From: Streptomyces sp. HPF1205
GTDB lineage: Bacteria > Actinomycetota > Actinomycetes > Streptomycetales > Streptomycetaceae
Length of the DNA stretch: 64,000 bases
Assembly (NCBI RefSeq): GCF_020400825.1
Contig: NZ_JAINVH010000008.1
Coordinates: forward strand, 186,001 to 250,000
Direction of reading: 5' to 3'
The notes below the pieces were generated by a model that did not search any database, had not been told where the DNA came from, and worked only from the letters and a program-made list of their open reading frames with translations. This document shows, piece by piece, positions 32,465 to 35,948 of the stretch (position 1 is the stretch's first letter; the number at the start of each line of letters is the position of its first letter). The position numbers were made by a program, and so were the translations under genes.

Positions 32465-34147
32465 ATGCCGGGGACACAACCCGGCGGCGCGACACGAACC
32501 GTGATCGTGACCGTCGACGACGACCCAGCGGTGTCGCGGGCGGTCGCCCGCGACCTGCGGCGACGCTACGGCGAGTCGCACCGCATCGTCCGCGCCGACT
32601 CCGGGAGGTCGGCGCTGGAGGCGCTGCGGGACCTCAGGCTGCGCGGCGACTCGGTGGCGGTGATCCTCGCCGACTACCGGATGCCGGAGATGAACGGCAT
32701 CGAATTCCTCGAACAGGCCATGGACGTCTACCCCGGCGCCCGTCGCGTGCTGCTGACCGCGTACGCCGACACCGGCGCCGCCATCGACGCCATCAACGTG
32801 GTCGACCTCGACCACTACCTGCTCAAGCCCTGGGACCCGCCGGAGGAGAAGCTCTACCCGGTGGTCGACGACCTGCTGGCCGCCTGGCGCCGCGAGGACC
32901 ACCGGCCGGTGAAGGAGACCAAGGTCGTGGGGCACCGCTGGTCGGCCCGCTCCTCGGGGGTCCGCGAGTTCCTCGCCCGCAACCAGGTGCCCTACCGCTG
33001 GTACTCGTGGGACGAACCCGAGGGGCAGGCTCTGCTCGCGGCCGCCGAGGAGGACGGCGAACGGCTGCCGGTGGTGATCACCCCGGACGGCAAGGCCCTG
33101 GTGGAACCCTCCGACCAGGACCTGGCCAGCAGCGTCGGGCTCGCCACCAGCCCCAGCTCCCGCTTCTACGACCTCATCGTCATCGGCGGCGGCCCGGCGG
33201 GCCTGGGCGCGGCCGTCTACGGCGCCTCCGAGGGCCTGCGCACCGTACTGGTCGAAGCCACCGCCACCGGCGGCCAGGCGGGACAGAGCTCCCGGATCGA
33301 GAACTACCTGGGCTTCCCCGACGGCGTCTCCGGCGGCCAGCTCACCGACCGGGCGCACCGCCAGGCCGCCAGGTTCGGCGCCGAGATCCTCACCGCCTGC
33401 GAGGTCACCGGCCTGGAGATCAACGGCTCCTCCAGGACCGTCCGGCTGGCCGACGGCTCCAGCGTGGCCGCGCACACCGTCATTCTGGCCACCGGCGTCT
33501 CCTACCGGCAGCTCGGCGCCCCCGGACTGGACGTCCTCACCGGCCGCGGCGTCTACTACGGCTCCGCGCTCACCGAGGCACCGGCGTGCCGGGACCAGGA
33601 CGTCTACATAGTCGGCGGCGCCAACTCCGCCGGACAGGCCGCGATGTACCTGGCCAGGGGCGCCCGCTCGGTGACCCTCCTGGTGCGCGGCGAGTCCCTG
33701 ACCGCCTCCATGTCGCACTACCTGATCCAGCAGATCGAGAACACCCCGCGAATCCGGGTGCGCACCTGCACCGAGGTGGCCGGCGTCCACGGCACCGACC
33801 ACCTGGAGGGGATCACCCTGCGCGACTCCAGGACGGGGCGGACGCAGGACGTGGACGCCCAGTTCCTGTTCGTGTTCATCGGCGCGGCGCCGAGGACGGA
33901 CTGGCTCGACGGAGTCGTGCTGCGCGACCCGCGCGGCTTCGTTGTCGCCGGCCCCGACCTCGCGGCCGCCGGCGAGCGCCCCGAGGGCTGGCCGCTGGAC
34001 CGGCCGCCGTACCACCTGGAGACCAGCGTGCCCGGCGTGTTCGTCGCCGGGGACGCACGGGCCGAGTCCGCCAAGCGGGTCGCGTCAGCGGTCGGCGAGG
34101 GCGCCATGGCCGTCATGCTCGTCCACCGCTACCTGGAGCGGCTATGA
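32465..34147 (+). CDS. Response-regulator receiver fused to thioredoxin-reductase-like flavoprotein
   Basis: 560 residues in three parts. (1) Receiver domain, about 12-130: acidic pocket VTVDDDP, phosphoacceptor Asp70 in ILADYRMPEMNG, switch Thr in LLTAYAD, Lys in LLKPWDPP. (2) A thioredoxin/glutaredoxin-like segment, about 155-225 (VREFLARNQVPYRWYSWDEPEG, RLPVVITPDGKALVEPS). (3) A thioredoxin-reductase-type FAD/NADPH module, about 238-560: GGGPAGLGAAVYGASEG, GGANSAGQAAMYLARGA, VFVAGDARA. The CxxC redox pair of true TrxR is absent (the aligned segment reads SALTEAPACRD), so it is not a classical thioredoxin reductase. No DNA-binding output is present. Its stop overlaps the start of the kinase gene (ATGA). 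Confidence 0.9.
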   Translation: MPGTQPGGATRTVIVTVDDDPAVSRAVARDLRRRYGESHRIVRADSGRSALEALRDLRLRGDSVAVILADYRMPEMNGIEFLEQAMDVYPGARRVLLTAYADTGAAIDAINVVDLDHYLLKPWDPPEEKLYPVVDDLLAAWRREDHRPVKETKVVGHRWSARSSGVREFLARNQVPYRWYSWDEPEGQALLAAAEEDGERLPVVITPDGKALVEPSDQDLASSVGLATSPSSRFYDLIVIGGGPAGLGAAVYGASEGLRTVLVEATATGGQAGQSSRIENYLGFPDGVSGGQLTDRAHRQAARFGAEILTACEVTGLEINGSSRTVRLADGSSVAAHTVILATGVSYRQLGAPGLDVLTGRGVYYGSALTEAPACRDQDVYIVGGANSAGQAAMYLARGARSVTLLVRGESLTASMSHYLIQQIENTPRIRVRTCTEVAGVHGTDHLEGITLRDSRTGRTQDVDAQFLFVFIGAAPRTDWLDGVVLRDPRGFVVAGPDLAAAGERPEGWPLDRPPYHLETSVPGVFVAGDARAESAKRVASAVGEGAMAVMLVHRYLERL

Positions 34148-35598
34148 CCGTCAGCCGGAACGTGTGCAGCGTCGACGAACTGCGCACGCTGTTCCTCTTC
34201 GAGAAGCTCGACCAGCGGCAGCTGGACTGGCTGTGCGACCAGGGCCGGGTGGAGACGGCGGAACCCGGCTTCCTCTACCGCGAGGGCGAACCCGCCACCT
34301 GCTTCTACGTCCTGCTGGAAGGCACGGTGGTCGTCTCCCGCCGGGTGGGCGCCGACGACATCGAGACCAGCAGGACCTCGCAGCGCGGGGTGTACGCGGG
34401 CGCGTTCCAGGCGTACCTCGGCGACCGCGTCCCGCAGGTCTACACCAACTCGATCCGGGTCACCGAGCCGTCCCGCTTCTACGTGCTGTCCGCCGACAAC
34501 TTCGCCAAGCTCATGCACGAGTGGTTCCCGATGGCCGTGCACCTGCTGGAGGGGCTGTTCTTCGGCGGCCAGTCCACCAAGCAGGCCATCGGCCAGCGCG
34601 AGCGGCTGCTCGCCCTGGGCTCGCTGTCGGCCGGCCTCACCCACGAGCTGAACAACCCGGCGGCGGCCGCGCTGCGCGCCACCTCCACCCTGCGTGAGCG
34701 CGTCGCCGGCATGCGCCACAAGCTGAGCTTCATCGCCGGGGCCGACCAGGACTACGACCGGTCCACCATCGAGTCCCTCTTCAAACTCCAGGAGAAGGCG
34801 GTCGAGAAGGCCGGCCGGGTCGAGCCGCTGACCCCGCTGGAGGCCTCCGACCGCGAGGACGAGATCGCCGACTGGCTCGACGAGCACGGCGTACGCGGCG
34901 GCTGGGACCTCGCGTCGACCTTCGTCCAGGCCGGGCTGGACACCGCCTGGCTGGACCAGGTGGAGGGCACCGCCGGTTCCGCCACGCTGGAGAGCGCGGT
35001 GCGGTGGCTGAACTACACGGTCGAGACCGAGCTGCTGATGGACGAGATTGAGGACTCCGTCACCAGGATCGAGGCGCTGGTCGGCGCCGCCCGCCAGTAC
35101 TCGCAGCTGGACCGGGCGCCGTACCAGGTGGTCGACGTCCACGAACTGCTGGAGAGCACCCTGCACATGCTCAGCGGCAAGATCGGCGAGGGGGTACGGG
35201 TCGTCAAGGAGTTCGACCGCGGCCTGCCGAGGATCCCCGCCTACCCGGGCGAGCTCAACCAGGTCTGGACGAACCTCATCGACAACGCCGTGGCCGCCAT
35301 GGAGGGCAGCGGCACGCTCACCGTGCGCACCGCCCTGGACCACGACCAGCTCCTGGTCGAGTTCCGCGACACCGGCCCCGGCATCGCCCCCGAGATCCGC
35401 GAGCGGATCTTCGAACCGTTCTTCACCACCAAACCGGTCGGCCAGGGCACCGGCCTCGGCCTGGACATCTCCTGGCGGATCGTGGTCAACAAGCACCACG
35501 GCGACCTCCAGGCCGAGTCCGAACCGGGCGACACCCGCTTCCTGGTCCGCCTTCCGCTGACCACCCCGCAACCTGAGACATCCACCGAGGAGAAGTGA
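34144..35598 (+). CDS. Soluble histidine kinase with N-terminal cyclic-nucleotide-binding-like domain
   Basis: 484 residues, no TM helix. A cNMP-binding-like domain (about 15-130: LFLFEKLDQRQLDWLCDQG, GFLYREGEPATCFYVLLEGTVVVSR) precedes a dimerisation/phosphoacceptor helix with His167 in SAGLTHELNNPAAAAL. After a long helical insert comes the HATPase domain (N-box NQVWTNLIDNAVAAM, G1 DTGPGI, F-box EPFFTTK, G2 GTGLGL). It overlaps the receiver-flavoprotein gene upstream by 4 bp and the UBP gene downstream by 1 bp, so it very likely phosphorylates Asp70 of that receiver. The signal is unknown; the canonical cNMP phosphate-binding RxAT motif is not obvious. Confidence 0.92.
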   Translation: MTVSRNVCSVDELRTLFLFEKLDQRQLDWLCDQGRVETAEPGFLYREGEPATCFYVLLEGTVVVSRRVGADDIETSRTSQRGVYAGAFQAYLGDRVPQVYTNSIRVTEPSRFYVLSADNFAKLMHEWFPMAVHLLEGLFFGGQSTKQAIGQRERLLALGSLSAGLTHELNNPAAAALRATSTLRERVAGMRHKLSFIAGADQDYDRSTIESLFKLQEKAVEKAGRVEPLTPLEASDREDEIADWLDEHGVRGGWDLASTFVQAGLDTAWLDQVEGTAGSATLESAVRWLNYTVETELLMDEIEDSVTRIEALVGAARQYSQLDRAPYQVVDVHELLESTLHMLSGKIGEGVRVVKEFDRGLPRIPAYPGELNQVWTNLIDNAVAAMEGSGTLTVRTALDHDQLLVEFRDTGPGIAPEIRERIFEPFFTTKPVGQGTGLGLDISWRIVVNKHHGDLQAESEPGDTRFLVRLPLTTPQPETSTEEK

Positions 35599-35948
35599 TG
35601 ACCACGAGCCCGGGCATCGACCCGACCGCCGTGCCCAGCGGCACCGGCTGTGCCGAATGCGACACCGCCGCCGGCTGGTGGCTGCACCTGCGCCGGTGCG
35701 CGACCTGCGGCCACATCGGCTGCTGCGACTCCTCGCCGGCCCAGCACGCCAGGGGGCACGCCGCGGCCACCGGGCACTCGGTCATCCAGAGCTTCGAGCC
35801 CGGCGAGGACTGGTTCTGGGACTACGAGGCCAGCACCTACGTCGAGGACGGTCCGGAGCTGGCCGCGCCGCACAGCCACCCCGCGGACCAGCCGGTGCCG
35901 GGACCGGGGGGACGAGTGCCCGCGGACTGGCGCAACCACCTCAACTGA
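35598..35948 (+). CDS. UBP-type zinc finger protein
   Basis: 116 residues, almost entirely one UBP (BUZ/ZnF-UBP) zinc finger. Ligands are seen in GTGCAECDTAAGWWLHLRRC, ATCGHIGCCDSS, AQHARGHAAATGHSVIQSF and WFWDYE, in the order of the eukaryotic deubiquitinase finger that grips the free C-terminus of ubiquitin. Bacteria of this group lack ubiquitin (some have Pup), so the bacterial ligand is unknown. The start ATG overlaps the kinase stop by one base; GAGGAG lies 5 bp upstream. Tight coupling suggests it is part of the same signalling unit. Confidence 0.9.
   Translation: MTTSPGIDPTAVPSGTGCAECDTAAGWWLHLRRCATCGHIGCCDSSPAQHARGHAAATGHSVIQSFEPGEDWFWDYEASTYVEDGPELAAPHSHPADQPVPGPGGRVPADWRNHLN

Follow-up and report, generated by a model that had tools for sequence, protein, structure and literature searches.

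Response regulators that join a receiver (REC) to a thioredoxin reductase (TrxR) have been noted in a census of two-component systems in archaeal signaling, which reports them as "Mycobacterium-like" in two Heimdallarchaeota (PMC5847659). We found the same receiver-plus-TrxR architecture in the first of three overlapping genes, here called A, B, and C, in a 64,000-nucleotide stretch of Streptomyces sp. HPF1205 (contig NZ_JAINVH010000008.1, positions 186,001 to 250,000; hereafter the window), where it is followed by a histidine kinase (B) and a UBP-type zinc finger protein (C). The architecture is thus already known. In the excerpt of the census used here it is the architecture that is named; the kinase partner, the zinc finger, the loss of the CxxC motif, and the decay of receivers come from the present analysis. 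New are the absence of both thiol centers in every aligned row, the finding that kinase B is never without A in a sample of 296 genomes and carries a helical insert, the receiver decay in a B-less clade, and the position of C beside the flavoprotein core under differing input domains. A search of open-licence papers found no published function for the A-B-C module and none for bacterial UBP zinc fingers. We give slightly better than even weight to reading the cassette as a two-component system with a phosphorylation-switched flavoprotein as its output and C as a candidate partner or client of that flavoprotein.

The flavoprotein has several better-known relatives. Low-molecular-mass thioredoxin reductases (TrxB, TIGR01292) share its fold and its FAD and NAD(P) motifs, and the thioredoxin reductase of the same genome is 36% identical over A residues 235-558. 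Compared with TrxB, A has Tyr365/Glu371 in place of the CxxC and a receiver and a glutaredoxin-like domain in front; the stretch that holds invariant W509, R513, and E519 is longer in A than in the own-genome enzyme. TrxR-like ferredoxin/flavodoxin-NADP reductases (FNRs), such as Bacillus cereus FNR2 (8c16), have no CxxC. They pass electrons to an external carrier protein (PMC8564101). A likewise has a TrxR fold and no CxxC, but FNR2 is structurally farther from A than TrxR is (Z 28.7 versus 35.9), and FNR lacks a receiver. AhpF is the top match by E-value in Foldseek/VIA lists, which are dominated by the TrxR domain and barely probe the other domains of A. Like A, it places one or more thioredoxin-fold domains ahead of a TrxR core; AhpF relays electrons via CxxC pairs, which A does not have.

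Gene A (32465..34147, + strand, 560 residues) encodes a receiver (residues ~14-126), a glutaredoxin-like segment (~152-223), and a thioredoxin-reductase-like FAD/NAD(P)H flavoprotein (~233-560). Gene B (34144..35598, + strand, 484 residues) encodes a soluble histidine kinase with a cyclic-nucleotide-binding (cNMP) fold at ~35-116, a His167 helix, an insertion at 206-277, and a C-terminal ATPase. Gene C (35598..35948, + strand) encodes 116 residues from its ATG and is a relative of RPA1320 (2ida). The A and B genes overlap by 4 bp (ATGA) and the B and C genes by 1 bp (TGATG); with the alternative GTG start of C at 35595, the latter overlap would be 4 bp. GC content at third codon positions is 94-96% in all three, which fits genuine genes in a window of 75% GC. 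A first-pass annotation made from the sequence alone had described this three-gene cassette with its 4-bp and 1-bp overlaps, and the coordinates proved exact; Pfam matched each of its domain claims, namely the receiver and TrxR-type flavoprotein of A, the cNMP-like kinase B, and the zf-UBP of C. The source genome (8.4 Mb, 187 contigs) holds a single A and a single B, and one C was found; the second-best match to A is the housekeeping thioredoxin reductase (160.6 bits), and the second-best match to B reaches 50 bits. Streptomyces fungicidicus p1, the closest among the plasmid records listed (80.6% identity), keeps the order A-B-C under the annotations "FAD-dependent oxidoreductase," "ATP-binding protein," and "UBP-type zinc finger."

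We aligned A with 80 named relatives, the best 80 of at least 584 from a genome-contig scan (81 rows), and also used a 48-row alignment. The named set is biased to intact receivers and cyanobacteria, for it came from a cyanobacterial query and two patterns, one of which fell within the receiver. Pfam places Pyr_redox_2 at residues 235-546 (E 1.3e-31), and in the AlphaFold2 (AF2) model the FAD and NAD(P) domains are folded as in TrxR, with Z 35.9 against 5mh4 across 302 residues. The root mean square deviation is 1.7 to the flavin-reducing structure 5mh4 versus 7.2 to the flavin-oxidizing structure 5mjk of the same enzyme, a weak hint that the model resembles the flavin-reducing arrangement. 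Positions of the FAD/NAD(P) motifs (G243, N280, G384, N387, G390, R408, and D530) are invariant in all 48 rows, and Arg408 aligns with the first Arg of HRRxxxR, a motif for the NADPH phosphate (PMC8564101).

The TrxR-type chemistry implied in the first-pass annotation finds no support as worded. No row carries the redox CxxC of thioredoxin reductase (0/81 and 0/48), which the housekeeping enzyme of the same genome has as CATC at the aligned site. Its place in A (residues 362-371, GVYYGSALTE; 33548..33577, + strand) is occupied by Tyr365 and Glu371 in 48/48 rows and by Gly366 in 47/48. This invariance indicates a non-random site that has not decayed, and it suggests that selection maintains the site for chemistry or docking. 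The best NCBIfam model is TIGR01292, with which A scores 221.9 bits, short of the cut-off of 343.45; the AhpF model TIGR03140 reaches 167.8 bits against 502.9. We therefore rejected membership in the thioredoxin reductase family despite the fold, as the CxxC is absent and the score lies below the curated cut-off, and membership in the AhpF family, for its score and for want of a CxxC in the glutaredoxin-like part.

The linking segment (residues 152-223; 32918..33133, + strand) is real as a thioredoxin-like fold, as the first-pass annotation had read it: its strands and helices follow the thioredoxin/glutaredoxin-type order in the AF2 model. A profile built from 20 middle segments (A residues 145-232) matches the mycoredoxin/glutaredoxin Rv3198.1 (2lqo, E 1.9e-8), and 17 of the 20 segments match Pfam Glutaredoxin at E ≤ 1 (best 5.4e-5); the window's own segment matched no Pfam family. 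Ser160-x-x-Ser163 stands where the CxxC would be expected. No row has a CxxC in this segment; position 160 is Ser in 66 and Cys in none of the 81 rows, and position 163 is Cys in 4/48. The fold and profile are those of a glutaredoxin, and the catalytic cysteine is missing. A CxxC does occur at other places in A in three rows (L106, L134, and L229). Electron transfer by A is still likely, given that it retains its FAD and NAD(P)H motifs, and the acceptor would be external.

The receiver (Response_reg, residues 14-126, E 1.7e-13) is complete in the window, with D18, D19, D70, T98, and K121. Asp70 (codon 32672..32674, + strand), the predicted phosphorylation site, lies at the phospho-acceptor position within ADYRMP (69-74) and is present in all 48 rows. 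We compared receivers with and without a neighboring kinase in a phylum sample of 296 actinobacterial genomes drawn evenly, with cut-offs of E ≤ 1e-60 for A, ≤ 1e-40 for B, and ≤ 1e-3 for C. Eighty of 104 rows of A relatives were fetched, 70 of them with a receiver; seven of these loci, whose contig ends less than 1.6 kb after A, were set aside, leaving 63. B lies 0-54 bp from A (measured between alignment ends) in 36 of the 63, and all 36 keep Asp70, Thr98, and Lys121, as well as an acidic residue at position 19 and Thr/Ser at 98. Among the 27 without adjoining B, 10 keep Asp70, 6 keep Thr/Ser98, and 14 keep Lys121; the complete set survives in 3. The Fisher value for Asp70 retention against adjoining B over these loci (8e-9) ignores relatedness and is not taken as a probability.

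In a tree of the flavoprotein core, nearly all A without B fall in one clade and so do not represent many independent events. The tree implies 2 changes in the state of B and 7 in the Asp/Lys trait, which is lost in no B-bearing row; this looks like roughly one principal change in B, after which the phosphorylation site was lost several times. Clade L137-L164 (e.g., L139, L141, and L154) consists of REC-TrxR paralogues without a neighboring kinase, many with decayed receivers. With His167 present in 92/92 B rows and the Asp70/Thr98/Lys121 set in every A that adjoins a B, the two-component pair proposed earlier is indicated, and the comparison of residue retention supports phosphotransfer from B to Asp70, as we infer.

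Kinase B matches HATPase_c (6.4e-24) and cNMP_binding (4e-8; PF00027, 33.6 bits against a cut-off of 27.5), and its HisKA match is partial (0.0028; 18.1 bits, below the cut-off of 26.9). His167 and Asn381 are both present in 92/92 rows, and the glycine boxes of the ATPase are conserved. The maximum 19-residue Kyte-Doolittle mean is 0.99, with no hydrophobic segment, so that hydropathy and Pfam agree on the soluble kinase with a cNMP-like domain described at first pass. In the AF2 model (predicted local distance difference test score 89.5), the cNMP barrel is followed by the long His167 helix, four inserted helices, a second long helix, and the ATPase. The insertion lies between the two long helices of the dimerization and histidine phosphotransfer domain (residues 206-277; window 34759-34974), and its E238 and W244 occur in at least 90% of 46 rows. 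Receptors of cAMP and cGMP have a phosphate-binding cassette with Glu and Arg; both residues are absent from B of the window, and a canonical-like pattern occurs in 6 of 92 rows. Cyclic-nucleotide sensing by the window's kinase is accordingly unsupported. The first-pass annotation had overlooked this loss in B, as it had the absence of a redox CxxC from A.

Two or three B genes accompany one A in 8/80 named loci and in five phylum-sample loci (L113, L116, L117, L119, and L120), so that several kinases may serve one A. Three tandem B-type kinases stand beside one A in L116 (9700-13933), L117 (5825-10034), L119 (5901-10110), and L120 (5922-10149); the kinase sequences of L116 and L204 are identical in the parts compared and probably come from one genome. 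Two B-type kinases, judged by alignment only, appear to have the cNMP domain swapped for a receiver-like N terminus (L134, 9738-10670; L207, 6313-7839).

Across the 296 genomes, counted without regard to relatedness or genome size, A occurs in 74, B in 36, and C in 70. Every B-bearing genome also has A (36/36), 27 genomes have all three genes, and C is found in 50 of the 74 genomes with A versus 20 of the 222 without. Of 53 B-type rows, the window's among them, 47 have an A no more than 6 kb away. When neighbors were clustered in 168 A-centered loci, B came first (80 loci), C second (28), and a generic short-chain dehydrogenase/reductase next (20); the open reading frames were called crudely, and several smaller clusters resemble antisense frames. 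In the phylum sample, C is found at most 6 kb from A in 13/36 loci with B, 1/27 receiver-type loci without B, and 2/10 others. From the co-occurrence, clustering, and proximity across samples, we rejected chance adjacency.

By title, the named relatives include 25 from Cyanobacteria and 22 from Bacteroidota, the rest coming from Chloroflexota, Acidobacteriota, Verrucomicrobiota, Deinococcota, Pseudomonadota, and others, with one Nitrososphaeraceae metagenome-assembled genome. The contig of that archaeal genome carries A and B (L213, 5994-9361), and mis-binning is possible. B lies within the 8-kb flanks in 62 of the 80 named loci (54 within 350 bp), C in 20, and both in 17. Gene order varies (A-B 24, A alone 15, B-A-C 12, B-A 12, and twelve rarer orders, divergent arrangements included); that the members are kept while the order changes makes a functional unit likely. 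Six of the 18 loci without B are cut by contig ends, and a full-length B-type kinase was found at another place in 10 of 12 genomes with a B-less A and sufficient flank, in one case ~28 kb away. The three genes thus form a unit conserved beyond close relatives and across several phyla, which the first-pass annotation had made a test of its proposal, with the limit that C is absent near A in most loci. The module is also patchy, as A was found in 4 of 79 evenly drawn cyanobacterial genomes at E ≤ 1e-120, two of which were already among the genomes of the named relatives. Relatives of A occur in 116 plasmid records, and plasmid carriage would allow horizontal spread.

C passes the gathering cut-off of zf-UBP (PF02148; E 1.3e-14, 54.6 bits against 22.7), in line with its original identification as a UBP zinc finger, and its nearest solved relative is RPA1320 (E 1.1e-22). 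Cys18, Cys21, Cys37, Cys42, Cys43, Trp28, His30, Leu31, Arg32, Ser46, His50, and Glu70 are invariant in 29 rows, and Cys34, His54, and His60 are each present in 28/29. Both RPA1320 and the USP5 ZnF-UBP domain share Trp28 and the zinc-ligand positions; Cys18, Cys21, Cys37, and His50 align with the USP5 positions that we take to be zinc ligands. In USP5, Arg221 grips the C terminus of ubiquitin. The corresponding place in C is His39, variable among the 29 rows, in an alignment to USP5 that is weak (E 0.054). Since the gripping Arg is not kept, binding of a GG tail by C is not predicted, and the suggestion that C might recognize ubiquitin-type tails finds no support in this weak alignment. Pup is essentially confined to actinobacteria and, given the B-A-C loci in Bacteroidota, cannot be the general ligand of C. 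In another genome of the same family, the C matches are split into two pieces in different frames (L102, 11245-11593).

On plasmids, the core of A also occurs with other inputs. Of 7 plasmid A-core proteins scanned with Pfam, 6 carry a cNMP domain where the receiver would be (L181-L185 and L272), and the L274 protein is the flavoprotein core alone, with no input domain. C adjoins the core in L182, L184, L185, and L272, under a cNMP input, and in L274, under none; it does not in the L181 and L183 regions. That C stands beside the core under a receiver, a cNMP domain, or no input argues for a role on the output side and makes C a candidate partner of the flavoprotein core. Nine C-centered plasmid regions were viewed, from 40 listed of 87 records, and in 4 of the 9 an A core lies no more than 5 kb away (L266, L271, L272, and L274). 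C is thus neither constant in the module nor confined to it. In Rhodococcus pyridinivorans and Streptomyces angustmyceticus, plasmid operons run dnaK-grpE-dnaJ-cbpM-clpB-trxA and then C and the cNMP-TrxR fusion gene (L182, 1-7233; L185, 1-7296). A Tsukamurella tyrosinosolvens plasmid (L266, 1823-7107) has A-B-C followed directly by genes annotated as S-(hydroxymethyl)mycothiol dehydrogenase and a metallo-β-lactamase-fold hydrolase, neighbors that suggest formaldehyde detoxification.

If the cassette is a two-component system with a switched output, B would sense a cytoplasmic signal through its cNMP-fold domain, the ligand here probably not being cAMP. It would autophosphorylate on His167 and pass the phosphoryl group to Asp70 of A, and the receiver, once phosphorylated, would alter how the FAD/NAD(P)H flavoprotein attached to it works or docks. 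Electrons would run from NAD(P)H to FAD and then, most likely, leave A for an external acceptor instead of reducing a disulfide of A itself, because A has no CxxC at the reductase site or in the glutaredoxin-like domain. As a physical partner or client of the core, C would be the leading candidate. Gene structure, domains, co-conservation, and the retention or loss of residues are observed; we infer phosphotransfer, gating by Asp70, catalysis, and the role of C from comparisons of sequences and models, and several observations weigh against them. Asp70 is still present in 10/27 A without B, and an independent-pairs test of B presence against Asp retention has just 1-2 usable pairs and no power, so that the association depends on roughly one major switch in B and on several Asp losses after it. 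At E 1e-30, the genomes of Ktedonobacter robiniae and Tengunoibacter, which have A, gave no B. In 23/36 loci with B there is no C within 6 kb of A; C was not found in 11/38 named genomes with A and has no A within 5 kb in 5/9 C-centered plasmid regions (L267-L270 and L273). Two of the three arginines of the NADPH-phosphate site are missing in A, so the nucleotide may be NADH rather than NADPH. The AF2 models, moreover, are of single chains, and A, B, and C are known here from sequence and models.

Other explanations fit parts of these data. The flavoprotein part could be the sensor, with FAD/NAD(P)H occupancy or redox state setting the lifetime of receiver phosphorylation and A acting through a partner such as C. 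This is possible, if rather unlikely: it would account for the absence of both thiol centers while the cofactor motifs persist, for the convergence of several B on one A, and for the likeness of the AF2 model to the flavin-reducing arrangement, but the invariant Tyr365/Glu371 pair suggests a chemical or docking role, and A has no other output domain. That A works as a genuine disulfide reductase of the thioredoxin/glutaredoxin type, with phosphorylation as its switch, is implied by the first-pass annotation and highly improbable. The TrxR fold, the rank of TIGR01292 as best model, and relatives annotated "thioredoxin-disulfide reductase" speak for this, but with no CxxC at either site in 81 and 48 rows and a score far below the cut-off, the thiol would need to be supplied by another protein.

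In a further reading, which we hold unlikely, a thiol center would be supplied in trans: A, with neither CxxC center of its relatives, would dock on and reduce Cys-rich C once B phosphorylates Asp70, and would thereby control the zinc/thiol state of C and hence its client binding. C has five invariant cysteines (the vicinal C42-C43 included) and one nearly invariant. A non-catalytic alternative, which we consider improbable, would make A and C a phosphorylation-controlled binding pair, an adaptor or targeting complex with the flavoprotein fold as a scaffold. C does go with the core under differing input domains, and the two plasmid operons put it and the cNMP-fused form in a proteostasis setting, but a scaffold would hardly explain the strictly conserved FAD and NAD(P) motifs, and C is often distant from A.

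Should the two-component system with a phosphorylation-switched flavoprotein output prove correct, a widespread and unstudied module would control electron flow directly by phosphorelay, without transcription, in bacteria of many phyla. Relatives of A annotated as "thioredoxin-disulfide reductase" are without the active site of that enzyme. Bacterial UBP zinc fingers would gain a concrete candidate partner, and, if A does reduce C in trans, the readout of the two-component system would be the redox/zinc state of a ubiquitin-type finger, in organisms that lack ubiquitin.

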